64,000 nucleotides of DNA from Microbacterium hydrocarbonoxydans (lineage in GTDB: Bacteria; Actinomycetota; Actinomycetes; Actinomycetales; Microbacteriaceae): the NCBI RefSeq assembly GCF_900105205.1, contig NZ_FNSQ01000005.1, positions 2,790,001 through 2,854,000 of the forward strand. Reading direction: 5' to 3'. The translations under genes and the position numbers were made by a program. The notes under the pieces are model-generated. The model saw only the letters and a program-made list of their open reading frames with translations. It was not told the origin of the DNA and did not search any database. Below, piece after piece: positions 34,182 through 57,956 of this stretch. Position 1 is the first letter of the stretch; the number at the start of each line of letters is the position of its first letter.

Positions 34182-34227
34182 GCGGATTTCCCTGTGCTCC
34201 CGACCGTCCGCAGGGTAGGTTTTGTTC

Positions 34228-35754: not shown

Positions 35755-36917
35755 CATCCGATCCCGCGGCGAGCGGCTCGCTCGTCATCCACTCGGTCCG
35801 GCTCGTCGACGGCGGCGTGGTCGTGCCGGACGCCTGGGTACGCATCGAGCACGGCATCATCGTCGACCGCGGCACCGGAGGCACCTGGGCAGCTGCCGAT
35901 GAGGTGGTGGATGCTGCGGCACTCGCCGGCCCAGGCGCCGTACTCACTGCGGGCTTCGTCGACATCCACGGGCACGGCGGCGCGGGGGCGTCCTTCGATG
36001 ACGGCGTCGAGGCGATCCGCACAGCGCGGGCGCTGCACCGGCAGCACGGCACCACGCGCGCGGTCGTCTCCCTCGTCACTGCTCCGCTCGACGACCTGGC
36101 GCGCCGAGTCGCCGACATCGCGGATCTCACGGAGACGGACACCGACATCCTCGGTTCCCACCTCGAGGGCCCGTTCCTGGACCCCGCCCATCACGGCGCG
36201 CACGAGCCGACGCTGCTGCGGCACCCCGCGGCCGATGACGTGACGCGACTGCTCGGTGCGGGTCGCGGCACGATCAGGCAGGTCACGCTCGCCCCCGAGC
36301 TCCCCGGCGGCCTCGACGCGGTCCGACTGATCGTGGAATCGGGCGCGGTGGCCGCCGTCGGGCACACGAGCGCGGATGCCGGACTCGCCGTCCAGGCGTT
36401 CGAGGCCGGAGCCACACTGCTCACGCACGCGTTCAATGCGATGCCCGGCATCCATCATCGTGCGCCGGGTCCTGTGCTGGCCGCCGCAGCCGATCACCGC
36501 GTGGTCCTGGAGGTGATCGCGGACAACGTGCACCTCGATCCGCACGTGATCAAGCTCGTCTTCGATTCGGCGCCAGGCCGGGTCGCACTCATCACGGATG
36601 CGATGGCCGCAGCGGGCAGCGCAGACGGTCACTACGACCTCGGCGCCGTCAGCGTGACAGTCGAGGGCGGGATCGCGCGAGCGGACGACACGGGGTCGAT
36701 CGCGGGATCGACCCTCACTCAAGACCTGGCGCTCCGGCGCGCTGTCGATGCGGGCGTGGCACTGGCCGACGCTGTTCGCGCGCTCACCGAGACGCCTGCG
36801 GATGCGATCGGTGTGGGCGACAGGTTCGGACGCCTCACCGTCGGGCACGTCGGCGACGCCGTGCTGCTCGACGCGCAGCTGCACGTCGCGCGCGTGTGGG
36901 TGGACGGCCGGCACTGA
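35751..36917 (+). CDS. nagA: N-acetylglucosamine-6-phosphate deacetylase
   Basis: A 388-residue amidohydrolase. DIHGHGGAGASFDDG carries the conserved HGH, GSHLEGPFLDPAHHGAH carries the metal-binding glutamate, GHTSADAG and THAFNAMPGIHHRAPG provide further ligands and substrate contacts, and ALITDAMAAAG carries the catalytic aspartate. It removes acetate from GlcNAc-6-phosphate, the step before NagB. The start overlaps the GH20 stop. A strong hairpin terminator follows 65 bp downstream. Confidence 0.93.
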   Translation: MTSDPAASGSLVIHSVRLVDGGVVVPDAWVRIEHGIIVDRGTGGTWAAADEVVDAAALAGPGAVLTAGFVDIHGHGGAGASFDDGVEAIRTARALHRQHGTTRAVVSLVTAPLDDLARRVADIADLTETDTDILGSHLEGPFLDPAHHGAHEPTLLRHPAADDVTRLLGAGRGTIRQVTLAPELPGGLDAVRLIVESGAVAAVGHTSADAGLAVQAFEAGATLLTHAFNAMPGIHHRAPGPVLAAAADHRVVLEVIADNVHLDPHVIKLVFDSAPGRVALITDAMAAAGSADGHYDLGAVSVTVEGGIARADDTGSIAGSTLTQDLALRRAVDAGVALADAVRALTETPADAIGVGDRFGRLTVGHVGDAVLLDAQLHVARVWVDGRH

Positions 36918-39622: not shown

Positions 39623-39994
39623 ATGCCCCAGGATTCCGCCACCGTCCCCGGCGTCGACCGCCCGAACATCACCGCGCTCGACATCGTGCGCTCGATCGTC
39701 CTGGTCACAGCCGTCGGCTCGCTCGCGCTGTGGGGCTTCGCCACGTGGCCCTTCCCGTGGAACGTCGTCCTCGGCATCGGCGCCCCGGTCGTCGTGATCC
39801 TGGTGTGGGCGCTGTTCCTCTCCCCCCGCCCCGTGCTGCGGCTGCACCCGTTCCTGCGCGCGGCCGTCGAGCTCCTCATCTACGTCGGCGTCACGATCGC
39901 CTGGTGGCTGATGGACCAGCCGGTCGTCGGCACCGCCTTCGCCGTGGTCGCCGTCGGAACGGGCGTGGTGAGCGGACGGCGCCGGATCGCATGA
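39623..39994 (+). CDS. YrdB-like membrane protein (DUF2568)
   Basis: The 123-residue protein has four hydrophobic helices, including IVRSIVLVTAVGSLALWGFA and LRAAVELLIYVGVTIAWWLM, a pattern typical of DUF2568/YrdB proteins of unknown function. TAGACT lies six bases before the ATG, in agreement with a leaderless mRNA. Its stop overlaps the start of the FAD oxidase gene by four bases, so the two are probably co-expressed. Confidence 0.8.
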   Translation: MPQDSATVPGVDRPNITALDIVRSIVLVTAVGSLALWGFATWPFPWNVVLGIGAPVVVILVWALFLSPRPVLRLHPFLRAAVELLIYVGVTIAWWLMDQPVVGTAFAVVAVGTGVVSGRRRIA

Positions 39995-41358
39995 CCGCCG
40001 CCCTCGACCTCCTCGTCTCCGCCCTCGGCGACCTCGTCGACACCGACGCCGCATCCCTCGACGACGCACGCGCGGACCAGTCCGGCCACGCGGCGCCGGG
40101 GCGCCCGATCGCCGTCATCCACGCCGAGACCGTCGAACACGTCCAGACCGTCATGCGCATCGCCACCGAGACTCGCACGCCGGTCGTCGTGCGAGGGGCG
40201 GGCACCGGTCTCGCCGGCGCCGCGAACGGCGGAGAGGGCGAGATCGTGCTCTCCACCCGCCGCATGACGGCGATCCGCGAGATCCGCGCCGATGACCTCC
40301 TCGCGGTGGTCGAACCCGGCATCCTGAACGCCGAGCTCAACGACGTGCTCGCCGCGCACGGGCTCTGGTGGGCACCGGACCCGGCCAGCCGGGCGATCTC
40401 GACCGTCGGCGGCAACATCGCCACGGGCGCAGGCGGACTGCTGTGCGCGAAGTACGGCGTCGTCAGAGATGCCGTGCTCGGCGTCGACCTCGTGCTCGCC
40501 GACGGCCGACTGCTGCATCTCGGCCACCGCAGCGTCAAGGGCGTGACCGGACTCGACCTCACCTCGCTGGTGATCGGCTCCGAGGGGACACTCGGCGTCG
40601 TCGTCGGCGCCACCCTCAAGCTGCGCAGACTCGTCGAGGGCACGACCTGCACGATCGCCGCGACGTTCCCCGACGTCCGTGCCGCCGCAGCGGCCTCTGC
40701 CGCGGTGACCGCCTCCGGCATCCAGCCCGCCATCATGGAGCTGATGGACTCCGCGAGCCTCGCCGCCGTCGCCGCGCTGCTCCAGCTGCCAGCCCCGACA
40801 CCGGGGAGCGCGCAGCTGACGATCCAGACCGACGGCCCGGCCTCCGTCGCGGAGGCGACCACGATCGCGACCATTCTCGCCGCGCATCACGGCGTGCCGC
40901 AGGTCTCCCACGACCGCGAGGAGGGCGAGCGGCTGCTCGCGATCCGTCGCGCTATGCACCCGGCGATGTCAGCCCTCGGTACCACTCTGATCGAGGACGT
41001 GTCGGTGCCCCGCAGTGCGATGCCCGCGATGTTCGACGAGATCGCCCGCATCGAGAAGGCCTACTCGATGACCATCCCGACGGTCGCGCACGCGGGTGAC
41101 GGCAACCTGCACCCGAACTTCATCTTCGAGGGTTCCGAGCCTCCCGCCCAGGTCTGGGCGGCCGCCGACGAGCTCTTCCGCGCCGCGATCGCGCTCGGCG
41201 GGACGCTGACCGGCGAGCACGGCATCGGCACGCTCAAGAGCCGCTGGCTGGCTGACGAGCTGGGCGACGATCAGTGGGAGCTGCAGCGGCAGATCACACG
41301 CGTGTTCGATCCGCTCGGCATCCTCAACCCCGGCAAGGTCTTCGCCGTCGATGCCTGA
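39991..41358 (+). CDS. FAD-linked oxidase, GlcD/D-lactate dehydrogenase-like
   Basis: A 455-residue flavoprotein of the vanillyl-alcohol oxidase/GlcD group. The N-terminal FAD-binding domain has PVVVRGAGTGLAGAANGG and ISTVGGNIATGAGGL. VTGLDLTSLVIGSEGTLGVV lies in the middle. The C-terminal cap has VAHAGDGNLHPN and GGTLTGEHGIGTLK, with conserved histidines. Such enzymes oxidise 2-hydroxyacids such as glycolate or D-lactate; D-lactate is an attractive substrate here because muropeptide recycling releases it, but this is inference. It overlaps neighbouring genes at both ends. Confidence 0.88.
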   Translation: MTAALDLLVSALGDLVDTDAASLDDARADQSGHAAPGRPIAVIHAETVEHVQTVMRIATETRTPVVVRGAGTGLAGAANGGEGEIVLSTRRMTAIREIRADDLLAVVEPGILNAELNDVLAAHGLWWAPDPASRAISTVGGNIATGAGGLLCAKYGVVRDAVLGVDLVLADGRLLHLGHRSVKGVTGLDLTSLVIGSEGTLGVVVGATLKLRRLVEGTTCTIAATFPDVRAAAAASAAVTASGIQPAIMELMDSASLAAVAALLQLPAPTPGSAQLTIQTDGPASVAEATTIATILAAHHGVPQVSHDREEGERLLAIRRAMHPAMSALGTTLIEDVSVPRSAMPAMFDEIARIEKAYSMTIPTVAHAGDGNLHPNFIFEGSEPPAQVWAAADELFRAAIALGGTLTGEHGIGTLKSRWLADELGDDQWELQRQITRVFDPLGILNPGKVFAVDA

Positions 41359-41755
41359 CATCCACGTCAGCGCCGCGGTGATCGTCGACGATGCCGGCAG
41401 GGTCCTCGTCGTCCGCAAGAAGGGCACGACGCGCTTCATGCAGCCGGGAGGCAAGCCGGAGCCAGGAGAGACACCCGCGCAGACGCTCGTAAGGGAGCTG
41501 CACGAAGAACTCGGTCTGCGCCTCGACGAGGGCGACCTCGTGCACCTCGGGACCTTCGTGTCAGCCGCAGCGAACGAGCCGGGTCACCGTGTGATCGCGG
41601 AGGCGTTCTCCGTGTCCATCGCCGCAGCCGAGGTGGCAGCCCAGGCAGAACTCGCCGAGCTCCGGTGGATCACGCCGGCCGACGCCGAGACGCTGCCGCT
41701 CGCACCGCTCAGCGTCGAGCACCTGCTGCCGCTCGCCTGGCCGACGACGCGCTGA
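41351..41755 (+). CDS. Nudix hydrolase
   Basis: The 134-residue protein contains a complete Nudix box, GKPEPGETPAQTLVREL followed by HEELGL, near residues 35-57. It should hydrolyse a nucleoside diphosphate linked to another group, with Mg; the substrate cannot be deduced. HVSAAVIVDDAGRVLVVRKKG is the usual first strand pair. The ATG at 41351 overlaps the oxidase gene by eight bases. It is convergent with nagB. Confidence 0.92.
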   Translation: MPDIHVSAAVIVDDAGRVLVVRKKGTTRFMQPGGKPEPGETPAQTLVRELHEELGLRLDEGDLVHLGTFVSAAANEPGHRVIAEAFSVSIAAAEVAAQAELAELRWITPADAETLPLAPLSVEHLLPLAWPTTR

Positions 41756-41765
41756 CCGCGCAGCG

Positions 41766-42545
41766 TCAGATGCCCTGCCAGGAGGGCTTGTTGGCGAAGG
41801 TGTACCGGTAGTAGTCCGCGAGGCGGAGGCGCGATGCCGCCGCCTCATCGACGACGACGGTCGCATGCGGATGCAGCTGGATGGCCGATCCGGGCAGGAT
41901 CGCCGAGAGCGGCCCCTCGACGGCATCCGCCACCGCCTGTGCCTTGCCCTCCCCGAAGGCCAGCAGCACGAGGTGACGCGCCCGCAGGATCGTTCCGAGC
42001 CCCTGGGTGATGCAGTGCCTGGGCACGTCGCCGATCGAGTCGAAGAAGCGCGCGTTGTCCTCGCGCGTCTGCTCGGTGAGGGTCTTCACCCTTGTGCGCG
42101 ATGCGAACGACGAACCGGGCTCGTTGAAGCCGATGTGTCCGTCGGTGCCGATCCCGAGGATCTGCAGGTCGACCCCTCCAGCCGCGTCGATGGCCGACTC
42201 GTAGTCGTCGCCGGCGTGCTGGATGGTCGCCTCTGCGCCGTTGGGCACATGAATGCGGCGCGGGTCGAGTCCGAGCGGCTCGACGACCTCGCGGGTGATC
42301 ACCGAACGGTAGCTCTCGGGGTGGGCGGGGTCGAGCCCGACATACTCGTCGAGGGCGAATCCACGCACCTGCGAGACATCCCGTCCCTCGAGCCGTGCGC
42401 GGAGCGCCTGATAGACCGGCAGCGGCGTGGAGCCGGTCGCGAGACCCAGCACGGCGTCCGGACGAGCGTCGATCAGCTCGGCGATCTCGGCGGCGACGAG
42501 CGCACCAGCCGCTTCCGCGTTCTGGACGATGACGACTTCAGCCAT
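41766..42545 (-). CDS. nagB: Glucosamine-6-phosphate deaminase
   Basis: A 259-residue sugar-phosphate isomerase-fold enzyme that converts glucosamine-6-phosphate to fructose-6-phosphate and ammonia. GLATGSTPLPVYQAL binds the phosphate, FALDEYVGL carries the general base, and GIGTDGHIGFNEPGSSF carries the ring-opening histidine. The ATG at 42545 follows GGAGATCG. It overlaps the upstream ROK kinase gene by eight bases; together with the divergent nagA they complete GlcNAc use. Confidence 0.95.
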   Translation of the reverse strand: MAEVVIVQNAEAAGALVAAEIAELIDARPDAVLGLATGSTPLPVYQALRARLEGRDVSQVRGFALDEYVGLDPAHPESYRSVITREVVEPLGLDPRRIHVPNGAEATIQHAGDDYESAIDAAGGVDLQILGIGTDGHIGFNEPGSSFASRTRVKTLTEQTREDNARFFDSIGDVPRHCITQGLGTILRARHLVLLAFGEGKAQAVADAVEGPLSAILPGSAIQLHPHATVVVDEAAASRLRLADYYRYTFANKPSWQGI

Positions 42546-43503
42546 GGGAAACGATCTCCTTGGAGGGGGTGGTGGCGCCCACGATCGCCGCGCCGAACGC
42601 GGCGGCCGGCGAGCCGGCGGGGAGCAGTTCGATTCTGTCATCCAGGTGCAGCGAGCGCATGAACGGCGAGGCGGCAGCCTCCGCTGCGAGAGCGGACCGC
42701 ACGCCCACGATCAGCCGGTCGCCGAGCGAGGTGAGCCCACCGCCGATGATCACACGTTCGACGTCGGCCGAGAGCACCAGCGCACGAACGGCCGCCGCGG
42801 CGCCGTGGAAGAGGTCGGTGCGGAGTTCGCCCGCACGCTCGTCGCCGGCATCTGCGGCATCGAGGATGTCCCGCACAGGCAGCGCACCAGGACGCCCCCA
42901 GGCCCTCGCCAGGGCTCCCCCGCCGCAGAAGGTCTCGATGCAGCCGCGTTGGCCGCATCCGCACAGCCGCCCGTTCGGATCGACAGAGAGGTGTCCGACC
43001 TCGCCGGCGGTGCCTCGAGAGCCGCGCCAGATCGTGCCGTCGACGACGATCCCCGCCGCCACCCCGGTGCCGAGGTTCAGGTACGCCATGGAGCCGACAA
43101 TGCCTCGGAGCACGGCTGCCCCGAGGGCCGCCGCCTTCACGTCGTTCTCGACGCGCACCGGTGTGCCGAGACGGCCGCCGACAAGGCCGGCCAGGTCGAG
43201 CGACTCGACGCCGAGGTTCACCGCGTGCAGCACTCGCCCGGATTCGGCATCGACGAGCCCGGGGATCCCGACTCCGACCGACTCGATGTCGGAGCGATCG
43301 AATCCGCCCTCGTCAGACAGCGCGTCGACGGTGTCGAGGATGCTGACGATGACCGCGTCCTCGCCCCATCCGGTGGGGCGGCGCAGCCGTGCCAGGATCT
43401 CCCCGGAGCGCGACACGGCGACGGCGTCGATCTTGGTGCCGCCGACATCCAGACCCACTCGAATCTGCCGACCGGCGAGGTCGGCGTCGATGGCATCCGT
43501 CAT
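42538..43503 (-). CDS. ROK-family sugar kinase, probable N-acetylglucosamine kinase
   Basis: The 321-residue protein has the ROK ATP-binding GLDVGGTKIDAVAV at the N-terminus, VENDVKAAALG with the catalytic aspartate, and GEVGHLSVDPNGRLCGCG. The zinc-binding CGCGQRGCIE is a ROK hallmark. No DNA-binding domain is present, so it is an enzyme rather than a repressor. Placement between nagB and the ROK repressor makes GlcNAc the most likely substrate; glucose or N-acetylmannosamine remain possible. GGAG precedes the ATG. Confidence 0.88.
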   Translation of the reverse strand: MTDAIDADLAGRQIRVGLDVGGTKIDAVAVSRSGEILARLRRPTGWGEDAVIVSILDTVDALSDEGGFDRSDIESVGVGIPGLVDAESGRVLHAVNLGVESLDLAGLVGGRLGTPVRVENDVKAAALGAAVLRGIVGSMAYLNLGTGVAAGIVVDGTIWRGSRGTAGEVGHLSVDPNGRLCGCGQRGCIETFCGGGALARAWGRPGALPVRDILDAADAGDERAGELRTDLFHGAAAAVRALVLSADVERVIIGGGLTSLGDRLIVGVRSALAAEAAASPFMRSLHLDDRIELLPAGSPAAAFGAAIVGATTPSKEIVSHG

Positions 43504-43543: not shown

Positions 43544-44731
43544 TCACGACACGCCCAGCTGGCTGGACAGGACCATCACCGCGGCGCCGCGCAGGACGAT
43601 GTCCTCCTGGAGCGTCCGTCGGATCAGCGCGTCCTCGAAGACGCCCTCGAGTGTGCGTGCGTGCAGTGTCTCCACAGCAGCATCGACGAACACTCCGTCG
43701 AGCAGGTCCCCGGGTCCGGAGAGGACGACTTCGGAGAGGTCGAGGGCTGCGACGATCGGGGCGATCGCGATCGCCATCCTGGTGCCGGCATCCCTCAGGA
43801 TCTCGTCGCGCGATCCGGGCGCCGCGTCGATCTCGGGGCGCAGGCGGGTCTCGGTGAGCCAGGCCTCGAGGCAGCCGTCCTTGCCGCACGCGCACCGGGG
43901 CCCGCCGTCGGTTCCGACGACGACGTGACCGATCTCCCCCGCCGCGAACCGGCTGCCGAGCAGCGGCTGGCTGCCGGTGATGACTCCTGCTCCGACACCA
44001 CGACCGATCTTGATCAGCATGAAGTCGGCCTTGGCCTCGCCGAAGGTGTACTCGGCGAGCACGGCAGCGTTGGCGTCGTTGCGGACGAGGACGGGAAGGT
44101 CCAGTTCGATCCCCAGCTTCGCCTCGAGAGGCAGGTTGCTCCACCCCAGGTTGGGCGAGCTGAGCACCACGCCGTCCGGACGGACGACGCCGGGCGTGCC
44201 GATGCCGACCCCGAGGATCGGCTGGGTCGCCGTATCGGCGAGTGCGCGCGCGAGCTCCAGCGTCGCAGCATAGGCTGCGTCTCCGTCCGCGGACTCGGGG
44301 CGCGGGACCTCCCGACGCTCCAGCACGTCGCCGTCGAGACTGAGCAGTGCGCCGACGAAGGCATGCGGTCCCGAGAGGTCGAGCCCGATGATCTGGTGAC
44401 CGACGCGGTCGATGTCGATGAGGATCGGCGGCTTGCCCGGTCCGACGGTCTCACGCACGCCCATCTCGATGACGATGCCGTCGGCGATGAACTCGGCGAC
44501 CAGATCGGAGATGGTGACACGGGTCAGTCCGGTCTCCCTCGACAGATCGGCGCGGCTCATCGCCCCCGAGTGGTACAGGGTCTGCAGCACCAATGCCCGG
44601 TTGTGCCCGCGCGCGTGCTCGGGAAGGACCTTCGAACGGGAGCGCAGATGGCGTCCGGGGCCGAAGGCGTGGGCGTTCGCACCGACGTAGTCTGACGACG
44701 TCGATGGACGTGATTCACCCGAAACGGACAT
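43544..44731 (-). CDS. ROK-family transcriptional repressor (NagC-like)
   Basis: The 395-residue protein has an N-terminal winged helix near residues 45-100 (LQTLYHSGAMSRADLSRETG and LTRVTISDLVAEFI) and a C-terminal ROK sugar-binding domain with the zinc motif CACGKDGCLEAW. NagC-type proteins release DNA on binding an amino-sugar phosphate. A palindrome, TTTGTT-N13-AACAAA, directly abuts its start codon, so it probably represses itself and the nagK-nagB genes downstream. No Shine-Dalgarno sequence is visible between the palindrome and the ATG, which suggests a leaderless or very short leader. Confidence 0.9.
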   Translation of the reverse strand: MSVSGESRPSTSSDYVGANAHAFGPGRHLRSRSKVLPEHARGHNRALVLQTLYHSGAMSRADLSRETGLTRVTISDLVAEFIADGIVIEMGVRETVGPGKPPILIDIDRVGHQIIGLDLSGPHAFVGALLSLDGDVLERREVPRPESADGDAAYAATLELARALADTATQPILGVGIGTPGVVRPDGVVLSSPNLGWSNLPLEAKLGIELDLPVLVRNDANAAVLAEYTFGEAKADFMLIKIGRGVGAGVITGSQPLLGSRFAAGEIGHVVVGTDGGPRCACGKDGCLEAWLTETRLRPEIDAAPGSRDEILRDAGTRMAIAIAPIVAALDLSEVVLSGPGDLLDGVFVDAAVETLHARTLEGVFEDALIRRTLQEDIVLRGAAVMVLSSQLGVS

Positions 44732-44810: not shown

Positions 44811-47800
44811 TTACGCTGAGTGCGCCCCGTCGGCGCCTCGCGCACGGTCTCGCAGACGGGCGACGAGACCCTCGACGATCTCCTCCCTGGCCTGCCGCGT
44901 CAGCGGCTTTCCCGGGACCCCCTGACGCCTCTGCACGGGCGTCGGACCGTCGAGAGGACGATACCGCACCCCTGATTCGGCGAGCCTTTGCAGATGCACC
45001 GGCAGACGAAGCGCGAACCCGTCGAACGGCGGCGCCTCTCCGCCCTCCCACAGCCGCTCGGCGATCGCCGCCAGACGCGGGAACACGGCGAAGTCGACGC
45101 GGTCGCGAGTCGGCAGATGCTCCGTCCAGACGTTCGCCTGGCCGCCGGCCGCGCCCTCCGGGACTCGTAGCGTGTATGCCCGTTCGATCGACAGCGGCGG
45201 CCCGACCCTGATCGGCTCCTCCGCCGACTCCGACTGCGGGTAGTCGAGATAGACCTCGAGGTCGGGGCACGCGATCACCGGGATGCCGCGGCGCAGCGCC
45301 TCCTGCATCGCGACGGGGCCTCTCCACGCGAGGATCTCGACGCCGTCGGGCACGTCGCCCTCGAGGACCTCGTCCCACGCGAGGGCGGTACGCCCCCGCC
45401 GTCGCACGTGCTCCACGAATCGAGCCGTGAACCACGGCTGCACCTCGTGCGGTGTCGCGAGGCCGAGCTCCTGCATCCGCCGGCGGGCGGCGGCACTCTG
45501 CTCCCATTCGGTCACGGGCACCTCGTCTCCGCCGATCCCGATCCACGGGGAGTCGAACAGGTCGCACAGGGCGTCGATCGCCGCGCGGCCGAAGTCGAGG
45601 GCGTCCTCGGTCGGTGCGAGCGTGCGGGGGTTCACGCCGAAGCGCTCCCACGGCGCGGTCGGCGCCTCGCCCAGGTCGGTGTTGCCGAGCTCCGGGTAGG
45701 CGGCGAGCGCGGCCTGGATGTGTCCCGGCAGCTCGACCTCGGGCACGATCGTGACGAACCGCTCAGCGGCGTACGCCACGAGATCCCGGATCTCGACATC
45801 CGTGTAGTACCCCTCGTGCACGCCCTGCTCCACCGTCGCGAGCGGACCGTGTCCGAGCTGGGTCGCCTCCCGACGCGCGCCGATCTCGGTGAGCCTCGGG
45901 AAGCCGGGCACGGCGAAGCGCCAGCCCTGATCATCGGTCAGATGCAGATGCAGGATCGACAGATGGTGATCGGCCAGCAGATCGACCAGACGGCGCACGT
46001 CCTCGACGGGACGGAAGTGCCGCGCCACATCGAGCATGACGCCGCGCCAGCGGTGAGCCGGTGCCCCTTCCCAGACCCCGGACGGGATGCGCGCATGCTC
46101 CGCTCCGGGCTCCCGCAGCTGACGCAGCACCGTCGCGCCGCGGAACACTCCGGCCTCGCTCGCGCCGATCACCTCGACTCCGTCGGCCGTGACCCGAAGA
46201 CGGAACGCCTCGGAGGTGACCCTGCCGTCGGCGAACGGCTCTGATGCAAGGGCCTCATCGACGCTCAGCGTGATCGCGGGCGCCGAGTCGTCCGGCACAT
46301 GTCCGGACCGCAGGCGCGCCGCAGTGGCATCCAGCGCATCTGGGGCGACGACCGGGGTGCGGACCGACCACTCGAACGCTCCCGCCAGGGGATCGATGGT
46401 CGAGTCGATCGACGGCACGGTGGCGCGATGCGCGGGCGGGGTCATCCGCAGTGCCCGTCCGGGGGCGGCCCCGGTCACGTCTGCGCCCCGGACCACCGGC
46501 ACTCCCGCCACCAGCACCTCGGCGATGCCGGACGGCGGGGCGTGCGGCGACTCGAACGTCGCGCCTGCATCGATCGACCCGGGGTCGAACAGCACAAGGT
46601 CGGCGGTGGCCCCCTCCCTGATCACACCGCGGGGTGAATCTCCGCGGTCGAGGCCCAGCCGCGCGGCCGGGGTGCCGGCGAGATGGCGCACCGCCTCTTC
46701 GAGAGTGAGCACACCGAGCTCTCGCACGTAGTGGCCGAGGTAGCGCGGGAAAGTCCCCCGCCCTCGCGGATGGGGCTTCGCGCCCACGAGGATGCCGTCA
46801 CTCCCCCCGCTGTGGCGAGGATGACGCATGATCGCCCTGACGTTGTCCTCGTCGCCGATGTGCATGAGGATCCCCGTCGCGCCGGCATCCTCGAGGATCG
46901 TGTCGAGCACGACGTCGATCGCGCGCGTCCCCGACGACGCGGCGATCTCGGCGACGGTCCGACCGACGAGTCCAGCGAGCCGCGCCGAGCGCGTGCCGGA
47001 GATCTCGATCGCCGTCCAGTCCGCGCGCTCCCCGTGGAAGCCGTCGCATCCGACCTCCTCGAGCTCGACCCGTACGGCTTCGCGACCGTCGTCGTCGAGA
47101 GCGGCGATCGCCCCCAGCAGGTCTCCGCCCGCAGCGAGCCTGCTCGGCAGGAGCGCCGCGAGGGTGGTCGCCCCCGGCAGGTAGGGATAGGTGTCGAGGG
47201 TGACGTCCACGCCGTCGCTGATCGCGTCGTCCACGAGCGCCAGGAGCTCCCCCGCCCGCCCGCGATTAGGAGCGAAGTTCATCGTCGCGTGCGTCAGATG
47301 GATCGGGCAGCCCGTGCGCCGGCCGATGTCGAGCGCCTCGCGGTAGGCATCCAGTGCGGCGCCGCCGTAGCTGCGGGTGTGCGGCGCCCAGTACCCGCCG
47401 CGCTCGGCCACGATCCGGCAGAGGATCTCGAGCTCCCCGGTGTCGGCGTACATCCCCGGCGTATAGGTCAGGCCGCTCGACATCCCGAAGGCACCGGCAT
47501 CCATCGCCGCACCCAGGAGCGCGCACATCTCGGCGACCTCCTCCACGGTGGCGGGCCGATCCTCGTGCCCCACGACCATCATGCGCAGGTTGCCCTGGGG
47601 CACCAGCACGGCGGCGTTGGCCACTGCGGCTGCGTCGATCGCGGCGAGGAGATCATCCATCGACCGCCACGGCACCGCAGCCGGCGTGCCGTTCCACCCG
47701 GCGATCTGGGCAGGGATGACGGCGGCGGTCGCATCGTCGAGGGGCGCGTAGCCGAGACCGTCCTGCCCGAGAACCTCGGTGGTGACCCCTTGGCGGATCT

Positions 47801-48065
47801 TGGCGTCGTGCGCCGCGCCGCTCAGCACCGCCAGCTCGCTGTGCGCGTGCATGTCGATGAAACCGGGTGAGAGCACGAGACCTGTCGCATCGATCTCGAC
47901 GGCGCCGTCCGGCAGGTCGAGTCGACGCGCGTCTCCCTCGCGGAGCACGGCGACGACCCTCGCACCCTCGATGGCCACGTCCGCGGTGAAGCGCTCGGCC
48001 CCGGTGCCGTCGACGACCGTGGCTCCCCGGTAGACCCTGACAGTCTTCTCGCTGCTCAGAAGCAC
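44811..48065 (-). CDS. N-acyl-D-amino-acid deacylase fused to GH20 beta-N-acetylhexosaminidase
   Basis: One open frame encodes about 1084 residues. Residues 1-540 are an amidohydrolase of the D-aminoacylase family: metal-binding MHAHSEL near residue 72, IHLTHATMNFAP, GILMHIGDEDN and GGSDGI with the catalytic aspartate. Residues 541-1084 are a full GH20 hexosaminidase: HLHLTDDQGWRFAVPG and the catalytic pair D847-E848 in GIGGDEVP. The junction reads GRALR followed by a methionine (46445); removing one G there would give a stop overlapping that ATG, the usual two-gene layout. So the fusion is either genuine or made by a one-base insertion. No signal peptide is visible. The GTG start overlaps the upstream gene. 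Confidence 0.8.
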   Translation of the reverse strand: MLLSSEKTVRVYRGATVVDGTGAERFTADVAIEGARVVAVLREGDARRLDLPDGAVEIDATGLVLSPGFIDMHAHSELAVLSGAAHDAKIRQGVTTEVLGQDGLGYAPLDDATAAVIPAQIAGWNGTPAAVPWRSMDDLLAAIDAAAVANAAVLVPQGNLRMMVVGHEDRPATVEEVAEMCALLGAAMDAGAFGMSSGLTYTPGMYADTGELEILCRIVAERGGYWAPHTRSYGGAALDAYREALDIGRRTGCPIHLTHATMNFAPNRGRAGELLALVDDAISDGVDVTLDTYPYLPGATTLAALLPSRLAAGGDLLGAIAALDDDGREAVRVELEEVGCDGFHGERADWTAIEISGTRSARLAGLVGRTVAEIAASSGTRAIDVVLDTILEDAGATGILMHIGDEDNVRAIMRHPRHSGGSDGILVGAKPHPRGRGTFPRYLGHYVRELGVLTLEEAVRHLAGTPAARLGLDRGDSPRGVIREGATADLVLFDPGSIDAGATFESPHAPPSGIAEVLVAGVPVVRGADVTGAAPGRALRMTPPAHRATVPSIDSTIDPLAGAFEWSVRTPVVAPDALDATAARLRSGHVPDDSAPAITLSVDEALASEPFADGRVTSEAFRLRVTADGVEVIGASEAGVFRGATVLRQLREPGAEHARIPSGVWEGAPAHRWRGVMLDVARHFRPVEDVRRLVDLLADHHLSILHLHLTDDQGWRFAVPGFPRLTEIGARREATQLGHGPLATVEQGVHEGYYTDVEIRDLVAYAAERFVTIVPEVELPGHIQAALAAYPELGNTDLGEAPTAPWERFGVNPRTLAPTEDALDFGRAAIDALCDLFDSPWIGIGGDEVPVTEWEQSAAARRRMQELGLATPHEVQPWFTARFVEHVRRRGRTALAWDEVLEGDVPDGVEILAWRGPVAMQEALRRGIPVIACPDLEVYLDYPQSESAEEPIRVGPPLSIERAYTLRVPEGAAGGQANVWTEHLPTRDRVDFAVFPRLAAIAERLWEGGEAPPFDGFALRLPVHLQRLAESGVRYRPLDGPTPVQRRQGVPGKPLTRQAREEIVEGLVARLRDRARGADGAHSA

Positions 48066-49273
48066 GTCGCCACCGCCCCGACGACCCGAGGGTCGTCGGC
48101 ATCGGGGTCGTCGATGACCGCCACCACACGCCACTTGTCGAAGGCCGTGCACGGGTGCGACAGTCCGAGGCGCACGACGTCACCTGGCTCCACGGATGAC
48201 CCGTCGGCGAGGGCGAGGAAGGCGTGCTGGTCGTTGAGCGCCGTGATCCGCCCCGCGACGGTCTGCGGCACCGGGAGGTCGAGGTCGAACGGGACATCCC
48301 TGCGTCCCGCATCGAGGAGCGCGAGCCCTGGCTCCGGCTGCGAGACGACGCGCGACCAGGCGTGCATCGCAGAGCGCAGCGGATCGGTCGATGTCAGGGG
48401 CCCGAACGGCGACATGCGGGCGTAGAAGCCGTCGTCGTGGATCTGGAACGCCCCTGAACGCAGCACGATGTCGGCTTCGTCCCGGTGGGGCGACAGGACG
48501 GCGGCTGCGCGATCCGGGAACGCGCTCCCACCGGCGCTGAGGACAGGTCGGAGCCCCGACTCGTAGTCCAGACGCTCGTGCAGGGTGACGAGCGTCTGAA
48601 GGTACGCGTCGACAGCCGACACGGAAGCATCGCCGCGGTCGGGTCCGAACGGCCCCTCGTATCCCGTGACCCCCGCAAGCCGCAGCCCGGGCGCCGCGGT
48701 GATGGCCGCTGCGATGAGCTCGCCCTCCTCGAGCGTGCGGGCGCCCGTGCGTCCACCGACGCCACCGAGCTCGACGAGCACGTCGAGCGGACGCTCGGCC
48801 TCGACGAGCGCGTCGGCGAGGATCCCGACGGCGGCGACGGAGTCGGCCCAGCAGAGGATGCGCAGAGCGGGGTCGGCAGCGAGGAGTTCACCGAGATGCC
48901 GTGCCGCCGCACGGTCGGTGACCGCGTTCGCGATGAGGACGACCGCGACTCCCGCGTCGACCGCCACCTCGGCCTGCCACGGTGTCGCGACCGAGATGCC
49001 CCATGCGCCGGCGTCGAGCAGCCGCTGCCAGAGCGCGGGCGCCATCGTGGTCTTGCCGTGCGGTGCGAGCAGGACTCCCTCTCTCCGCGCCCAGTCGAAC
49101 ACCGTCGATTCGTTGTGGTCCAGCGCCGCCTCGTGCACCGTCAGCACGGGGGTCACGAGGTCGGACAGATGCAGCCCCGCCGATCCGACCTCTGACAGTC
49201 GCAGCCCCGCAGTGCGCGCCGGGAATCCCTTCGTCCAGGCGCCGAGAACAGGATCCGGGATTTGTAGAGGCAT
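48056..49273 (-). CDS. Fold-type III PLP enzyme, D-serine dehydratase/D-threonine aldolase-like
   Basis: The 405-residue protein has an N-terminal alanine-racemase-like barrel with the PLP lysine K74 in APHGKTTMAP. The C-terminal domain has H373-x-C375 in LSHPCTAFDKW, the zinc pair of eukaryotic-type D-serine dehydratases. It probably deaminates a D-amino acid. The downstream gene contains an N-acyl-D-amino-acid deacylase that could supply the substrate, and the divergent RidA-like protein could clear the reactive enamine product. TAGCCT lies six bases before the ATG, with no ribosome-binding site, so the mRNA is probably leaderless. Confidence 0.85.
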   Translation of the reverse strand: MPLQIPDPVLGAWTKGFPARTAGLRLSEVGSAGLHLSDLVTPVLTVHEAALDHNESTVFDWARREGVLLAPHGKTTMAPALWQRLLDAGAWGISVATPWQAEVAVDAGVAVVLIANAVTDRAAARHLGELLAADPALRILCWADSVAAVGILADALVEAERPLDVLVELGGVGGRTGARTLEEGELIAAAITAAPGLRLAGVTGYEGPFGPDRGDASVSAVDAYLQTLVTLHERLDYESGLRPVLSAGGSAFPDRAAAVLSPHRDEADIVLRSGAFQIHDDGFYARMSPFGPLTSTDPLRSAMHAWSRVVSQPEPGLALLDAGRRDVPFDLDLPVPQTVAGRITALNDQHAFLALADGSSVEPGDVVRLGLSHPCTAFDKWRVVAVIDDPDADDPRVVGAVATCF

Positions 49274-49298: not shown

Positions 49299-49706
49299 AT
49301 GACTGCGAAGATCCGCGTTTCGACCGACGCTGCCCCGGCCCCCGCCCACACCTTCTCGCAGGGGATCCGCAAGGGACCCATCGTCCAGATCTCCGGTCAG
49401 GGGCCGGTGGATCCCCAGACCAACGAGTACCTCCACCCGGGCGATGTCGCCGCGCAGACCACTCGGACACTCGAGAACGTCAAGGCGATCGTCGAGGCCT
49501 CTGGCGCGACCTTCGACGACGTCGTGATGCTGCGCGTCTACCTCACCACCCGCGAGGACTTCGCCGTCATGAACGAGGCATACGGCGCCTTCGTCACCGC
49601 CCACACGCCGAGCGGCGTGCTGCCCTCGCGGACGACGGTCTTCACCGGTCTGCCGCGCGAGGAGATGCTCGTCGAGATCGACGGTCTCGCCGTCGTCACG
49701 GACTGA
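49299..49706 (+). CDS. RidA-family enamine/imine deaminase
   Basis: The 135-residue protein has a chorismate-mutase-like YjgF/RidA fold. It shows PAHTFSQGIRKGPIVQISGQ near the N-terminus, a DVVMLRVYLTTREDF segment with the conserved arginine, and SRTTVFTGLPREEMLVEIDG at the C-terminus. RidA proteins hydrolyse 2-aminoacrylate and related imines released by PLP dehydratases. Divergent pairing with a D-serine-dehydratase-like gene fits this role well. TAGGCT six bases upstream indicates a leaderless start. Confidence 0.88.
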   Translation: MTAKIRVSTDAAPAPAHTFSQGIRKGPIVQISGQGPVDPQTNEYLHPGDVAAQTTRTLENVKAIVEASGATFDDVVMLRVYLTTREDFAVMNEAYGAFVTAHTPSGVLPSRTTVFTGLPREEMLVEIDGLAVVTD

Positions 49707-53812: not shown

Positions 53813-54271
53813 ATGTCCGAACTGCGCATGGTCGAACTCTCCGCTGCGACGATCGTCGCCGTGAACAACATGTCGCTCAAGCCCGGACAGGAGCAGTTCC
53901 TCGCTCCGGTGTCCTACGGCATCGCAGCGACCGTCATCGATCCTCAGACGTCCTGGCAGCGTGTCGTCCTCGACGGCGACCAGGTCGTCGGCTTCGTCAG
54001 TGCGAACTTCGACCCCGATGCCCCGGAGGAGCACTTCCGCTCCGTGCTGTGGCGCATCAACGTCGACGCCGACGATCAGGGCAAGGGTGTCGGGCGCTTC
54101 GCCGTGGAGCAGCTGATCGACGAGGCGCGCACGCGCGGGTTCGATCATGTCAACGTCATCTACGAGGCCGGCGAGGACGGACCGGAGGCCTTCTTCCTCC
54201 GCGTCGGGTTCACCCCGGTCGGCGAGACCGAGTACTCCGAGGTCATCGCTCAGATCCGCATCACTTCGTAG
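53813..54271 (+). CDS. GNAT-family N-acetyltransferase
   Basis: The 152-residue protein has the GNAT fold with the acetyl-CoA loop DQGKGVGRFAVEQLIDEA near residues 85-102 and a final YEAGEDGPEAFFLRVGFTPV segment typical of spermidine/spermine-type acetyltransferases. The substrate is not known. TAGCCT lies exactly six bases before this ATG, the leaderless pattern seen elsewhere in the window, so I prefer it over GTG 53807, although AGGAGG nine bases before that GTG makes it a real alternative. Confidence 0.85.
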   Translation: MSELRMVELSAATIVAVNNMSLKPGQEQFLAPVSYGIAATVIDPQTSWQRVVLDGDQVVGFVSANFDPDAPEEHFRSVLWRINVDADDQGKGVGRFAVEQLIDEARTRGFDHVNVIYEAGEDGPEAFFLRVGFTPVGETEYSEVIAQIRITS

Positions 54272-54393
54272 ACCGGCGGCGGGGTCTCGAATCCCCTCCC
54301 CCATCGAGGCCCCGTCGCCCTGTCCGGTCGACCGGTGGGAACCGCGATCGTCGTGCCATCGTCACGGATTTGTTGCGGACAACCACAAAAGCC

Positions 54394-54456
54394 TTGCGCG
54401 GGACACGTTCGGGTGCATATCATCGCTGTCAGCAGCATCGGCGAAACGCTTCGACG
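54394..54456 (+). promoter_or_regulatory. Promoter and operator of the LacI-family regulator gene
   Basis: TTGCGC (54394-54399) and TATCAT (54418-54423) are spaced by 18 bp. Just after the expected start of transcription lies CGGCGAAACGCTTCGACG (54439-54456), which differs by one base from the operator before the downstream transporter operon. Its position suggests autorepression by blocking early transcription. Confidence 0.75.
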
Positions 54457-54485
54457 ATGTGATGACAGTGACGATGGAGTCCCCC

Positions 54486-55499
54486 ATGACGACGATCCAC
54501 CAGGTGGCCGCTGCCGCCGGCGTGTCGATCAGCACGGTCTCCTACGCGCTCAGCGGCAAGAGGCCCGTCTCGGAGAAGACCCGTCTCCGCATCGAAGCAG
54601 CCGTCCAGACCCTCGGCTACGAACCGGACGCCGGAGCCCGGATGCTGGCCGGTCGTCGCACGAACATCTTCGCTCTCACCGAGCCGTTGCGCGCCGACAC
54701 GCACGCGCCGACCCACATGGCCTTCGTGCTCGCGACCGCCGTCGCCGCGCGTCGCAGCGGCTACGACATCCTGCTGCTGACCGATGAGCAGGCCTCCGAG
54801 GGAATGAACCGGGTGGCGGCGAGCAACCTCGTCGACGCCATCCTCGTGCTCGACGTCGCACCGGACGACGAACGGGCCGACATCGCCCGGTCGGTGCGCA
54901 CCCCGACGGTCTTCGTCGGCATCCCCGACGATGCGCACGACCTGACCTGCGTCGACCTCGACTTCGAGTCCGCCGGTCGTCTCGCCGTGGATCGACTCGC
55001 CGACGCCGGACACACCGCCGTCACGCTGCTCGGTCAGACCGAGGTCGCGTACCGCAAGTCGAACTTCCCGCGGCGATTGCTGCGCGGAGTGCAGGATCGC
55101 AGCTCCGAGCGGGACGTCGAGCTCGAGTGGGTCGCGACCGGCGCCACCACCACAGAGCCCGCCACTGTCCGAGCTGCGGCCGAGCGGGCACTCGCACGAG
55201 GCGACTGCGCGTTCATCGTGCATGCCGTCGGCGACGTCCACGAGGCGCTGCTCGAGAGCATCGCCGCACACGGGCTGACCGTCGGCGTGGACGTCTCGGT
55301 GATCTCCGCAGCCGCCTCGTTCGACACCTCGACCCTGCCGGTTCCGATCGACACCATCCCGCTCGTCCCGCAGCAGTCCTGCGACCTCGCGGTCGAACTC
55401 GCACTGCAGCAGCTGGAGAACGCCGGTGCGAGCGCCCGCATCCATCTCATCCCTCCCGAGTACCACGCCGCCGGCTCGATCGCTCCCGCCCGGGAATGA
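54486..55499 (+). CDS. LacI-family transcriptional regulator
   Basis: The 337-residue protein has the LacI helix-turn-helix and hinge at residues 1-55 (IHQVAAAAGVSISTVSYALS) and a periplasmic-binding-protein-like sugar domain. The start at 54486 follows GGAG by six bases; several earlier in-frame ATG and GTG codons precede it but lack such a site. Matching palindromes lie in its own leader and before the ABC transporter operon, so it probably represses both until an oligosaccharide of the alpha-xylosidase pathway binds. Confidence 0.92.
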   Translation: MTTIHQVAAAAGVSISTVSYALSGKRPVSEKTRLRIEAAVQTLGYEPDAGARMLAGRRTNIFALTEPLRADTHAPTHMAFVLATAVAARRSGYDILLLTDEQASEGMNRVAASNLVDAILVLDVAPDDERADIARSVRTPTVFVGIPDDAHDLTCVDLDFESAGRLAVDRLADAGHTAVTLLGQTEVAYRKSNFPRRLLRGVQDRSSERDVELEWVATGATTTEPATVRAAAERALARGDCAFIVHAVGDVHEALLESIAAHGLTVGVDVSVISAAASFDTSTLPVPIDTIPLVPQQSCDLAVELALQQLENAGASARIHLIPPEYHAAGSIAPARE

Positions 55500-55529
55500 C
55501 CACGGCTCAGGCGGCTTCTGCGTCCGCTT

Positions 55530-55547
55530 CGTCGAAACGCTTCGACG
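55530..55547. promoter_or_regulatory. LacI operator before the sugar ABC operon
   Basis: CGTCGAAACGCTTCGACG is an 18-bp palindrome with eight of nine positions matching on each side and the central CG expected for LacI proteins. The same sequence with one change lies at 54439-54456 before the regulator gene. It is 78 bp upstream of the binding-protein start. Confidence 0.82.
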
Positions 55548-55624
55548 ATTCAGATCACACAACTGAACATCCGACCCACTGATGTGTCCGGCCCTCCTGG
55601 GCCACCGAGAAAGGAGTGCCGACG

Positions 55625-56932
55625 ATGGCACGCACGACCCGCAGGACGAAGACGTTGGCGGCTCTGGCCGCTCTCACCGCGACCGGGATCGCACTGAGCG
55701 GCTGCACCGCCGGCTCCGGCGACGAGGGGGGCGACGGCGACACCCTCAAGCTCTGGCACTACGAGGGCGCCGACAGTGCGATGGGCAAGGCCTGGGCCGA
55801 GGCGATCGACATCTTCGAAGAGGAGACCGGAGCGACGGTCGAGTTCGAGGAGAAGTCCTTCGAGCAGATCCAGAAGACCGCGTCCCAGGTGCTCGACACC
55901 GATGCCGCGCCCGACCTCATGGAGTTCAACAAGGGCAACGCGACGGCCGGCTTCCTCGCCTCGACCGGACTCATCTCCGACATCTCCGACGCTGTCGCGG
56001 AGTACGGATGGGATGAGAAGCTCGCCCCCTCCCTCCAGACCACCGCGAAGTACTCGGAAGACGGCGTGATGGGCGGCGACACCTGGTTCGGCGTCCCCAA
56101 CTACGGTGAGTTCGTCGGCGTCTACTACAACCAGGACGCCTTCGCCGCCGCCGGCTTGGAGATCCCGACCACGTACGACGAGTTCGTCGACGTGCTCGAC
56201 GCGTTCGTCGCTCAGGGTGTCACCCCGCTCGCCGAGGCCGGCGCCGAGTACCCGCTCGGACAGCTCTGGTACCAGCTCGCCCTGCTCGAGGGCGACCGCA
56301 GCTTCGTCGACTCGTACCAGCTGTACGACGGCGAGGTCGACTGGCAGGGCCCCGAGGTCACCGCCGCCTCCGAGACGCTCGAGGAGTACGTCGACAAGGG
56401 CTACATCGCCTCGGACGTCTCGTCGGTCAAGGCCGAGGATGCCGGTGTCTCCTTCATCAACGGCACCTCGCCGATCTTCGTGTCGGGCTCCTGGTGGTTC
56501 GGCCGCTTCGTCACGGAGGCCACCGGCTTCGACTGGACGATGACCGCGTTCCCCGGCGCCGATCTCTCGCTCGGCTCCTCGGGGAACCTGTGGGTCGTGC
56601 CCGAGAACGCCGCGAACAAAGAGCTCGCCTACGAGTTCATCGACATCACGATGCGGCCGGAGATCCAGGCGATCATCGGCAACAACGGCGGCCTCCCCGT
56701 CGCCGCGGACACCGCCGACATCACCGATGAGAAGAGCGCGGCCCTGATCGAGACGTTCAACGGCGTGCTCGACGCCGACGGACTCTCGTTCTACCCGGAC
56801 TGGCCCGCGCCCGGATTCTACGACGTGCTCGTGCAGGAGCTCCAGGGCCTGATCACCGGAGCGCAGGACGCGGAGACGACCAACAAGAACCTCGGCGAGC
56901 AGTACGACGAGGGCACCTCGGAATTCCGTTGA
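55625..56932 (+). CDS. Sugar ABC transporter substrate-binding lipoprotein
   Basis: The 435-residue protein begins with a lipoprotein signal peptide: ARTTRRTKTLAALAAL, then a lipobox LSGC at about residues 24-27 whose cysteine would be lipidated. The mature part is a family 1 (MalE-like) solute-binding protein, with LKLWHYEGAD and NLWVVPENAANKELAYEFID. It captures an oligosaccharide outside the membrane for the two permeases encoded downstream. AAAGGAG lies nine bases before the ATG. No ATPase gene is present, so it probably shares a general MsmK-type ATPase. Confidence 0.93.
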   Translation: MARTTRRTKTLAALAALTATGIALSGCTAGSGDEGGDGDTLKLWHYEGADSAMGKAWAEAIDIFEEETGATVEFEEKSFEQIQKTASQVLDTDAAPDLMEFNKGNATAGFLASTGLISDISDAVAEYGWDEKLAPSLQTTAKYSEDGVMGGDTWFGVPNYGEFVGVYYNQDAFAAAGLEIPTTYDEFVDVLDAFVAQGVTPLAEAGAEYPLGQLWYQLALLEGDRSFVDSYQLYDGEVDWQGPEVTAASETLEEYVDKGYIASDVSSVKAEDAGVSFINGTSPIFVSGSWWFGRFVTEATGFDWTMTAFPGADLSLGSSGNLWVVPENAANKELAYEFIDITMRPEIQAIIGNNGGLPVAADTADITDEKSAALIETFNGVLDADGLSFYPDWPAPGFYDVLVQELQGLITGAQDAETTNKNLGEQYDEGTSEFR

Positions 56933-56940
56933 TCCACTCG

Positions 56941-56971
56941 CGGGGGCGACGGCCGCACTTCGTCGCCCCCG
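56941..56971 (+). terminator. Intercistronic hairpin between binding protein and permeases
   Basis: CGGGGGCGACG at 56941-56951 pairs perfectly with CGTCGCCCCCG at 56961-56971 across a nine-base loop, in the gap between the binding-protein stop and the first permease. Such hairpins commonly stop most transcripts or protect the upstream mRNA end, so that binding protein is made in excess over permease. Confidence 0.75.
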
Positions 56972-56990
56972 CATCTTCCTGGAGATGAAC

Positions 56991-57956
56991 ATGTCACTCG
57001 CCACACGCCGCGAGGGCCGCACGAAGCTGCCGCCCGAAGAGCCCTCGATCCCGCAGCGCAGCGGTGGGACGGGCGCCTACTGGATGTACCTGCTGCCCGG
57101 CTTCATCCTGCTGCTCATCGTCGTCATCGTCCCGCTCGTCTGGAACGTCTATCTGACCTTCACGAAGTGGAAGGGCGTGCGCACGCCGGAGTTCATCGGC
57201 CTCGAGAACTGGCAGAAGATCCTCACCGACAGCGACTTCTGGACCTCGTTCACGAACTCGGTGTGGATGATCATCGCCATGGTCGTCGTGCCCACGATCG
57301 TCGGGCTCATCGTCGCCGCGCTCCTGTTCGACGTCGTCGGCCGCAAGTTCGGCGGCCGGGTCGGCAGCTTCCTGCGCGCGACCTACTACCTCCCCCAGAT
57401 CCTGCCCATCGCGGTCGCCGGCATCGTGATCGGCTGGATCGTGCGGCCAGGTGGTGACGGTGCGCTGAACCAGATCCTCGGCTGGTTCGGCATCCCCGCC
57501 TACGACTGGCTCGGCCAGATGCCCTCCGCGCTCATCGTGCTGATGGTGGTCATGGTCTGGGTCCAGCTCGGCTACCCCGTCGTCGTCTTCATGGCGGCGC
57601 TGCAGCGCGTCGACCCCGAGCTCTACGAGGCCGCCGAACTCGACGGCGCCAACTGGTTCCAGCGCTTCTCGGCGATCACCATGAGCATCATCCGCCCGGA
57701 GATCTTCGTCGTGACCCTGACCTGCACGATCGCTGCACTCAAGGTCTTCGGCCCCGTCTACATCATCACCCGCGGCGGCCCCGCCGGCGCCACCCTGGTG
57801 CCCGCGTACTACGCCTACCAGGAGTTCTTCACGAAGCGGAACGTCGGCTACGGCGCGACCATCGCCACCGTGCTGACCATCGTCGTGGTTATCGTGTCGA
57901 TCATCTTCATCCGCGTGCAGAACTCTCTCGAGCGCAAGGAAAGGGCGGGTCTCTGA
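56991..57956 (+). CDS. Sugar ABC transporter permease, MalF type
   Basis: The 321-residue protein has six predicted membrane helices, the first being MYLLPGFILLLIVVIVPLVW. The cytoplasmic EAA loop reads YEAAELDGANWFQRFSAITM, the contact point for the ATPase. It forms a heterodimer with the next gene's product. Two ATGs are close; GGAG at 56981-56984 is spaced six bases from 56991, so that one is preferred over 56985. The stop overlaps the next ATG by one base. Confidence 0.94.
   Translation: MSLATRREGRTKLPPEEPSIPQRSGGTGAYWMYLLPGFILLLIVVIVPLVWNVYLTFTKWKGVRTPEFIGLENWQKILTDSDFWTSFTNSVWMIIAMVVVPTIVGLIVAALLFDVVGRKFGGRVGSFLRATYYLPQILPIAVAGIVIGWIVRPGGDGALNQILGWFGIPAYDWLGQMPSALIVLMVVMVWVQLGYPVVVFMAALQRVDPELYEAAELDGANWFQRFSAITMSIIRPEIFVVTLTCTIAALKVFGPVYIITRGGPAGATLVPAYYAYQEFFTKRNVGYGATIATVLTIVVVIVSIIFIRVQNSLERKERAGL

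Follow-up and report, generated by a model that had tools for sequence, protein, structure and literature searches.

A conserved deacylase–GH20 fusion in Microbacterium and its probable place in the use of C1-oxidised chitin

The closest described system to the one reported here is the ong cluster of Pseudoalteromonas prydzensis, which, according to PMC9537276, encodes OngA, a family 20 glycoside hydrolase (GH20) that splits GlcNAc-GlcNAc1A (N-acetylglucosamine joined to N-acetyl-D-glucosaminate), OngB, the pyridoxal 5'-phosphate (PLP) deaminase OngC, which yields 2-keto-3-deoxygluconate (KDG), OngD (a RidA protein), and KdgK. The same paper reports the complete pathway for Gammaproteobacteria and a single betaproteobacterium; PMC7014002 describes a comparable operon built around a GH20 gene, and an annotated example of the cluster is also present in P. 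shioyasakiensis. PpOngB is the GlcNAc1A deacetylase of this oxidative chitin pathway, and its specificity is determined by Ser292 and Gln298, according to PMC12017989. Here, we describe a gene in a 64,000-nucleotide stretch of the Microbacterium hydrocarbonoxydans genome (assembly GCF_900105205.1, contig NZ_FNSQ01000005.1, positions 2,790,001 to 2,854,000; hereafter the window) that encodes a D-aminoacylase-like deacylase and a GH20 hexosaminidase as one chain. This fusion is conserved and old, and it probably belongs to an actinobacterial pathway for C1-oxidised chitin. No paper on the fusion or on an actinobacterial GlcNAc1A pathway was found among the open-licence papers listed in the searches. 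The first-pass annotation of this stretch knew of no described enzyme with this pairing. Neither PMC9537276 nor PMC12017989 mentions actinobacteria or a fused protein in its main text, as judged by a word search.

The fused gene is a single frame on the minus strand that runs from a GTG start at 48065, overlapping the 3' end of the preceding PLP enzyme gene, to a stop codon at 44811-44813. Its parts are as follows.

44811..48065, minus strand: fused gene, deacylase then GH20, 1084 residues (open frame, Pfam, relatives in the genus)
46446..48065, minus strand: deacylase half, residues 1-540, Amidohydro_3, D-aminoacylase-like (Pfam, PDB matches, alignment)
47859..48038, minus strand: presumed N-terminal beta-sandwich segment of the deacylase, residues 10-69, retained in reduced forms
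46701..47858, minus strand: deacylase barrel, the catalytic core, residues 70-455, gutted or lost in 8 relatives (alignment of relatives)
46446..46700, minus strand: deacylase C-terminal segment, residues 456-540, retained in reduced forms (alignment of relatives)
46398..46445, minus strand: junction linker, residues 541-556, MTPPAHRATVP..., mostly MPPPAHRATVP in relatives (sequence)
46077..46397, minus strand: GH20b domain, residues 557-663 (PF02838, 38.8 bits; cut-off, 26.1)
45042..46052, minus strand: GH20 catalytic domain, residues 672-1008 (PF00728, 293.1 bits; cut-off, 22.3)
45522-45527, minus strand: D847-E848 pair of the GH20 domain, aligned with 3rcn and invariant

Over the whole chain, Pfam placed Amidohydro_3 at residues 57-525 ahead of the two GH20 domains. 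Membership of the deacylase half in the amidohydrolases was evident from PF07969 (96.2 bits against a cut-off of 29.7) and an HxH motif, H73-A-H75, and that of the second half in GH20 from PF00728 and its Asp-Glu pair; the GGDE motif aligns with 3rcn, and D847-E848, which we take to be the catalytic pair, is invariant across 38 rows. The best PDB match of the deacylase half was the D-aminoacylase of Alcaligenes faecalis (1m7j, 1rjp; E 9e-70), and PpOngB was matched as well (9kb1; E 2.8e-55), whereas the GH20 half best matched the beta-N-acetylhexosaminidase of Arthrobacter aurescens (3rcn; E 8e-111), a 543-residue chain that lacks a deacylase half and is 39% identical in the structure alignment. 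The first-pass annotation had described two enzymes in one chain of about 1084 residues, each complete in its catalytic residues, and the open frame, Pfam, and the relatives described below bear out the single chain; the residues H73, H75, Y201, H229, H259, Y295, D423, R434, and D847-E848 are in place, but D102 stands where PpOngB and D-aminoacylases have a metal-binding Cys. A cytoplasmic location, also proposed there, is probable given that no hydrophobic leader appears in the first 70 residues (highest 19-residue mean, 0.86). AlphaFold models were weak for the full chain (mean pLDDT 65.9, pTM 0.50; only 38 similar rows in the alignment) and for a reduced form (69.6 and 0.62; only 26 similar rows), and the sole use made of them is that, in the latter, six of the first seven ten-residue blocks score 82-90. 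Structure comparisons returned GH20 chains only and thus did not probe the deacylase part; the beta-sandwich assignment of its end segments presumes the general amidohydrolase fold. A search of the strain's own genome (G000; 3.59 Mb in 8 contigs) found one other GH20 and no further relative of the deacylase half.

The full-length fusion was found in one frame in 60 of the 295 Microbacterium genomes searched, all 60 sharing the same residues at nine active-site positions of the deacylase (H,H,D,Y,H,H,Y,D,R), and both Pfam domains occur in one chain in each of at least 120 of 271 database relatives; this conservation establishes the fusion as genuine, far beyond chance. The same two-domain architecture was thus present in related genomes, where the first-pass annotation had advised looking for it. 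Outside Microbacterium, no near-full-length match appeared among the matches listed for 398 family-drawn and 396 order-drawn genomes, two draws that overlap and include a few Microbacterium, and in the sampled genomes the fusion is restricted to one genus. The 60 full forms, together with 8 reduced forms discussed below, were taken from 72 opened loci, the window included. Four loci were counted as neither: G255, where the match falls in two frames; G183, interrupted by many frame breaks; G277, where the N-terminal part is missing ahead of the GH20; and G114, which has no GH20. The fusion of G065, split over two contigs, lies outside the 72 and entered only the monooxygenase comparison, and G022, whose contig ends inside the GH20 domain, is within the 60 but was omitted from the GH20 tree, in which G255 was treated as full. 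The G183 locus (L149) is complete but frame-broken in several genes, resembling assembly error more than decay.

The junction itself reads GRALR-MTPP in the window and contains the string CGGATGA, as first described, and in relatives it mostly reads G-x-ALRMPPPAHRATVP. These features had suggested either a sequencing artefact or a one-base insertion at a former ATGA overlap, and an internal start at the junction ATG, giving two proteins from one message, would be a further variant, since that ATG coincides with the junction both in the window and in 54 of the 60 full fusions. The junction Met is missing in the other six (a pattern gave 53 with and 6 without, and G246, with Met, was added by eye), including G060 and G038, both full rows of the first-splitting branch of the GH20 tree. 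One standalone deacylase ends in GRSLRMTKEGTG, so the Met may come from a deacylase tail. An unfused pair with an ATGA overlap was not seen in the opened loci, although no systematic search was made for one. With one open frame in 60 genomes and in each of the 120 database proteins listed, reduced forms that remain in frame, and a variable junction Met in an old fusion, we rejected the artefact, the one-base insertion, and the internal start. We regard the artefact and the internal start as extremely unlikely, and the one-base insertion is unsupported.

In a deacylase tree of 54 rows, including 26 of the 33 standalone loci considered below and 12 rows labelled fused, the fused rows form one clade nested among standalone deacylases, showing a single origin of the fusion inside their clade. 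One of the 12 is G114, whose locus (L160) retains the deacylase and the remaining operon with the GH20 gone; since its deacylase nests among fused rows, the GH20 half was lost secondarily. The ratio of nonsynonymous to synonymous differences (pN/pS) in four pairs of full forms was 0.14-0.24 for the barrel and 0.16-0.24 for the GH20 domain, showing purifying selection on both halves.

GlcNAc1A is structurally an N-acetyl-D-amino acid. We consider it likely, by analogy with the ong cluster, that the fusion unites an OngB-like deacylase and an OngA-like GH20 in a bifunctional enzyme of an actinobacterial pathway for C1-oxidised chitin, the chemistry being read from gene context. Oxidised chitobiose (GlcNAc-GlcNAc1A) would enter the cell, where the GH20 half would free GlcNAc and leave GlcNAc1A, and the deacylase half would then strip the acetyl group from GlcNAc1A. 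The adjacent PLP enzyme, aided by RidA, would convert the glucosaminate to KDG and ammonia, a KDG kinase and a KDPG aldolase encoded elsewhere would complete the route, and the freed GlcNAc would be processed via a ROK kinase, NagA, and NagB. The fusion would hold two steps in fixed proportion and could pass GlcNAc1A between its two active sites.

A pathway leading to KDG predicts genes for KDG kinase and KDPG aldolase beside unfused relatives of the deacylase, and this prediction was tested in 33 standalone deacylase loci of Actinomycetota, Tsukamurella and Arthrobacter among them, and in 72 control loci with a GH20 but no such deacylase. A KDG kinase-like gene was present in 22 of the standalone loci (1 of the controls), a KDPG aldolase in 21 (1), either of the two in 24, a PLP enzyme gene in 32 (4), RidA in 29 (1), and a gluconate-type symporter in 9 (0), and a separate GH20 gene was also found in 7 standalone loci. 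This context is the strongest argument for the GlcNAc1A assignment. The window likewise encodes the four kinds of ong enzyme (GH20, D-aminoacylase-like deacylase, PLP deaminase, and RidA) together, two of them fused, and the order of reactions proposed is the same as that described for the ong cluster. On the minus strand, the genes follow in the order PLP enzyme, fusion, ROK regulator, ROK kinase, and NagB, with RidA divergent, an order kept in most fused relatives.

48056..49273, minus strand: PLP enzyme of the D-serine deaminase/D-threonine aldolase type, OngC-like, with its 3' end overlapping the fusion start (PF14031 and PF01168)
49299..49706, plus strand: RidA, OngD-like, divergent (PF01042)
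43544..44731, minus strand: ROK-family regulator (family profile, synteny)
42538..43503, minus strand: ROK-family sugar kinase, probably for GlcNAc (family profiles)
41766..42548, minus strand: NagB, glucosamine-6-phosphate deaminase (NF001684, 405.7 bits with the cut-off at 326; TIGR00502 above cut-off)
35781..36908, plus strand: NagA, GlcNAc-6-phosphate deacetylase (TIGR00221, 231.1 bits; cut-off, 225.65)
34222-35754, plus strand: second, separate GH20 gene, followed by nagA

The PLP enzyme shares 33% identity with the deaminase of the P. shioyasakiensis ong cluster, and in the PDB it best matches a D-serine deaminase. All 60 full fusions have RidA within the locus stretch examined. In G000, genes for a KDPG aldolase and a PfkB kinase are neighbours at C5:250238-251478, away from the fusion.

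Several observations weigh against the GlcNAc1A assignment. The 33 standalone loci are those that were opened, several of them close kin, the controls come largely from other genera, and the Tsukamurella locus L194 matches itself in the counts, as the queries for kinase, aldolase, symporter, and IclR were taken from it. The PLP enzyme gene adjoins 50 of the 60 full fusions and is absent locally at the other 10. A KDG gene was found in none of 16 fused loci of 19 kb tested, close copies of the G000 KDPG aldolase occur in genomes without the fusion too, and no lytic polysaccharide monooxygenase (LPMO) of family AA10 was found in G000 or in most fusion carriers. P. prydzensis differs in that its cluster includes kdgK and its genome encodes an AA10 LPMO; moreover, its GH20 is a separate periplasmic protein and its regulator is of the MurR/RpiR rather than the ROK type, whereas nagB and a ROK kinase are part of the Microbacterium operon. 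The likely transporter differs too, the ong pathway having an SSS-family GlcNAc1A transporter and the window an ABC transporter at 55616-58843. In the deacylase half, the sequence indicates the same D-aminoacylase-like fold as in PpOngB, and alignment shows that the HxH motif, two metal His, the catalytic Asp, Tyr194, Tyr285, and Arg379 of PpOngB are kept. The metal ligand Cys97, however, is Asp102 here and Asp in the 14 other aligned rows of the clade, leaving both His of the Cys/His/His (subtype V) metal site without its Cys; Lys254 is replaced by Thr, Glu226 by Tyr, Ser291 by Ala, and Ser292 by Thr (PpOngB numbering), and Gln298 by Ala or Leu depending on the alignment, which is unsure there, so that neither specificity residue is matched. 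The family also does not group with PpOngB in the 54-row tree, where PpOngB, its P. shioyasakiensis relative, and AfDam fall outside. With Cys97, Lys254, and the specificity residues replaced and a clade of its own, the deacylase falls outside the PpOngB family as it was published; it may nevertheless work like PpOngB. The A. faecalis D-aminoacylase is likewise a single-enzyme chain of a separate clade, whose equivalents of Cys97 and Lys254 are not kept here.

Among the alternatives, the one closest to the first-pass annotation would have the enzyme act on peptidoglycan or glycoconjugate fragments, with the GH20 half taking off GlcNAc, the deacylase half freeing an ordinary D-amino acid, and the PLP enzyme degrading it. 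The best PDB matches, to D-aminoacylase and D-serine deaminase, would suit such a substrate, as would the missing OngB specificity residues, and OngC accepts D-serine and D-threonine as well (PMC9537276). Yet KDG kinase and KDPG aldolase, found by 24 of the 33 standalone relatives, have no role in the breakdown of D-serine or D-glutamate, the symporter in 9 of these loci suits a sugar acid, and the operon includes nagB and a sugar kinase, so that we consider this explanation unlikely. The earlier interpretation is partly supported overall: its idea that one chain couples GlcNAc removal with N-deacylation appears right, while gene context favours a KDG-forming pathway for oxidised chitin over peptidoglycan D-amino acids. 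The same pathway could instead serve another N-acetyl-hexosaminate, in the galacto or manno form, and yield an epimer of KDG; GH20 enzymes can accept more than one N-acetylhexosamine, and the residues by which PpOngB contacts the sugar are replaced here. Such a substrate is quite improbable, as nagB and nagA in the same window suit GlcNAc rather than an epimer, and the source of such acids named in PMC9537276 is C1-oxidised chitin. An operon with nagB and a kinase but without nagA might also point to ordinary hydrolytic use of chitin, the deacylase half acting on GlcNAc or GlcNAc-6-phosphate as a stand-in for NagA. This is disfavoured because nagA is present in the same window, and it would leave the PLP enzyme and RidA genes, as well as the KDG genes beside standalone relatives, unexplained; we judge it very unlikely.

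Reduced forms of the chain occur in 8 genomes. In these, 91-363 of the 540 deacylase positions align, with the barrel gutted and the N- and C-terminal segments and the linker still in frame ahead of an intact GH20 domain. Well-supported forks of the GH20 tree force these forms onto three separate branches: G154, which sits on a long branch, a clade of six, and G132. The PLP enzyme gene is absent from the locus stretch in all 8 reduced forms and in 10 of the 60 full ones (Fisher 6e-6, with kinship ignored, as in all Fisher and hypergeometric values here). In the three pairs among G285, G128, and G162, identity is 45-54% and pN/pS 0.49-0.89 for the barrel remnant, compared with 78-85% and 0.20-0.24 for the N-terminal segment, 60-75% and 0.40-0.56 for the C-terminal segment, which in the closest pair fares hardly better than the barrel, and 89-91% and 0.14-0.15 for the GH20 domain. 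The more diverged pair G257/G070 gave a weak contrast (N-terminal segment, 58% and 0.48; barrel, 32% and 0.64). Set against the full forms, in which both halves are selected, these values indicate that the barrel was released in the reduced ones, and selection on the remaining shell rests mainly on the N-terminal segment.

A possible replacement for the lost step lies elsewhere in these genomes. Among 23 genomes tested, 22 carry one PLP enzyme gene and G107 (79% complete) carries two fragments; the gene lies at the fusion locus in 5 genomes, which were selected for this, and in the 17 others it is found elsewhere, at 44-52% identity. The remote loci, in their fullest form, hold genes for KDPG aldolase, KDG kinase, PLP enzyme, deacylase, IclR, and RidA. 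A second deacylase gene adjoins the remote PLP enzyme gene in 7 of the 8 reduced genomes, the contig of the eighth ending there, and in 2 of 9 full genomes examined that have no local PLP enzyme gene, a third having it about 8 kb away (reduced versus full, Fisher 0.015), and a KDPG aldolase gene is near in 5 of the 8 and 7 of the 9, respectively. This pattern would fit a fused deacylase that is dispensable once another supplies the step and is retained where none does. Taken as a whole, the history may be that Actinobacteria have their own oxidised-chitin pathway with a separate Asp/His/His family of GlcNAc1A deacetylases, that in Microbacterium a single fusion event joined one of these to its substrate-producing GH20 and created a two-site chitobionic acid enzyme, and that the barrel later decayed on three branches, with its discontinuous beta-sandwich kept as a structural part of the GH20; we give this full account about an even chance.

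AA10 LPMO genes were found in 11 of the 295 genus genomes, comprising 7 of the 60 full fusions, G065, the reduced G075 and G162, and G108, which has neither a full nor a reduced fusion. The association with the fusion (p 2e-4) ignores kinship, and the carriers G179, G195, G286, and G291 are one clade. An LPMO of its own as the source of oxidised ends was dropped for G000, where no AA10 was found, and most fusion carriers, lacking one too, would need oxidised ends made by others.

Other arrangements of these genes were also seen. In G561 (L277, 6750-9650, plus strand), a related deacylase, 45% identical, shares one frame with a PfkB kinase resembling KDG kinases; with that partner, it was rejected as a second deacylase–GH20 fusion, and if real, the chain is a second fusion tying this deacylase to the KDG step. 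A GAGGAG ahead of an inner GTG may start the kinase separately, and two relatives in the same genus (L218, L219) have deacylase and kinase as separate genes. In Frigoribacterium (L080, L082), a GH20 gene adjoins a deacylase gene with RidA and PLP enzyme genes nearby, and the deacylase of L082, the one aligned, keeps the Cys97/Lys254 pattern; here the same gene set appears to have been assembled independently. Many haloarchaeal plasmids carry genes named D-aminoacylase that are 36-40% identical to the deacylase half. Around the operon itself, a GlcD-like flavin adenine dinucleotide oxidase gene and a Nudix gene (39994-41755, plus strand) face it and keep this position in most fused relatives, and the other flank holds what are presumably L,D-transpeptidase-like and isocitrate dehydrogenase-like genes. 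A LacI regulator and the solute-binding protein and two permeases of an ATP-binding cassette (ABC) sugar importer are encoded at 54147-58843 (plus strand; ABC part, 55616-58843), the importer being a candidate for uptake of the disaccharide; similar importer genes lie near the fusion locus in several relatives too.

LPMOs are important for chitin turnover, and the fate of the oxidised ends is described, in the literature found, only for Proteobacteria (PMC9537276). The fusion is usual in its genus yet, within the literature searched, undescribed in print. If the GlcNAc1A assignment is true, Microbacterium and many other Actinomycetota would consume oxidised chitin ends, most fusion carriers, having no AA10 LPMO themselves, would feed on products that others release, and the database names now in use (N-acyl-D-amino-acid deacylase, N-acyl-D-glutamate deacylase, and family 20 glycosylhydrolase) would need correction. 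The fused enzyme allows the use of oxidised ends to be tested with one protein, and its decayed forms are a natural series in which a fused domain passes from enzyme to scaffold.

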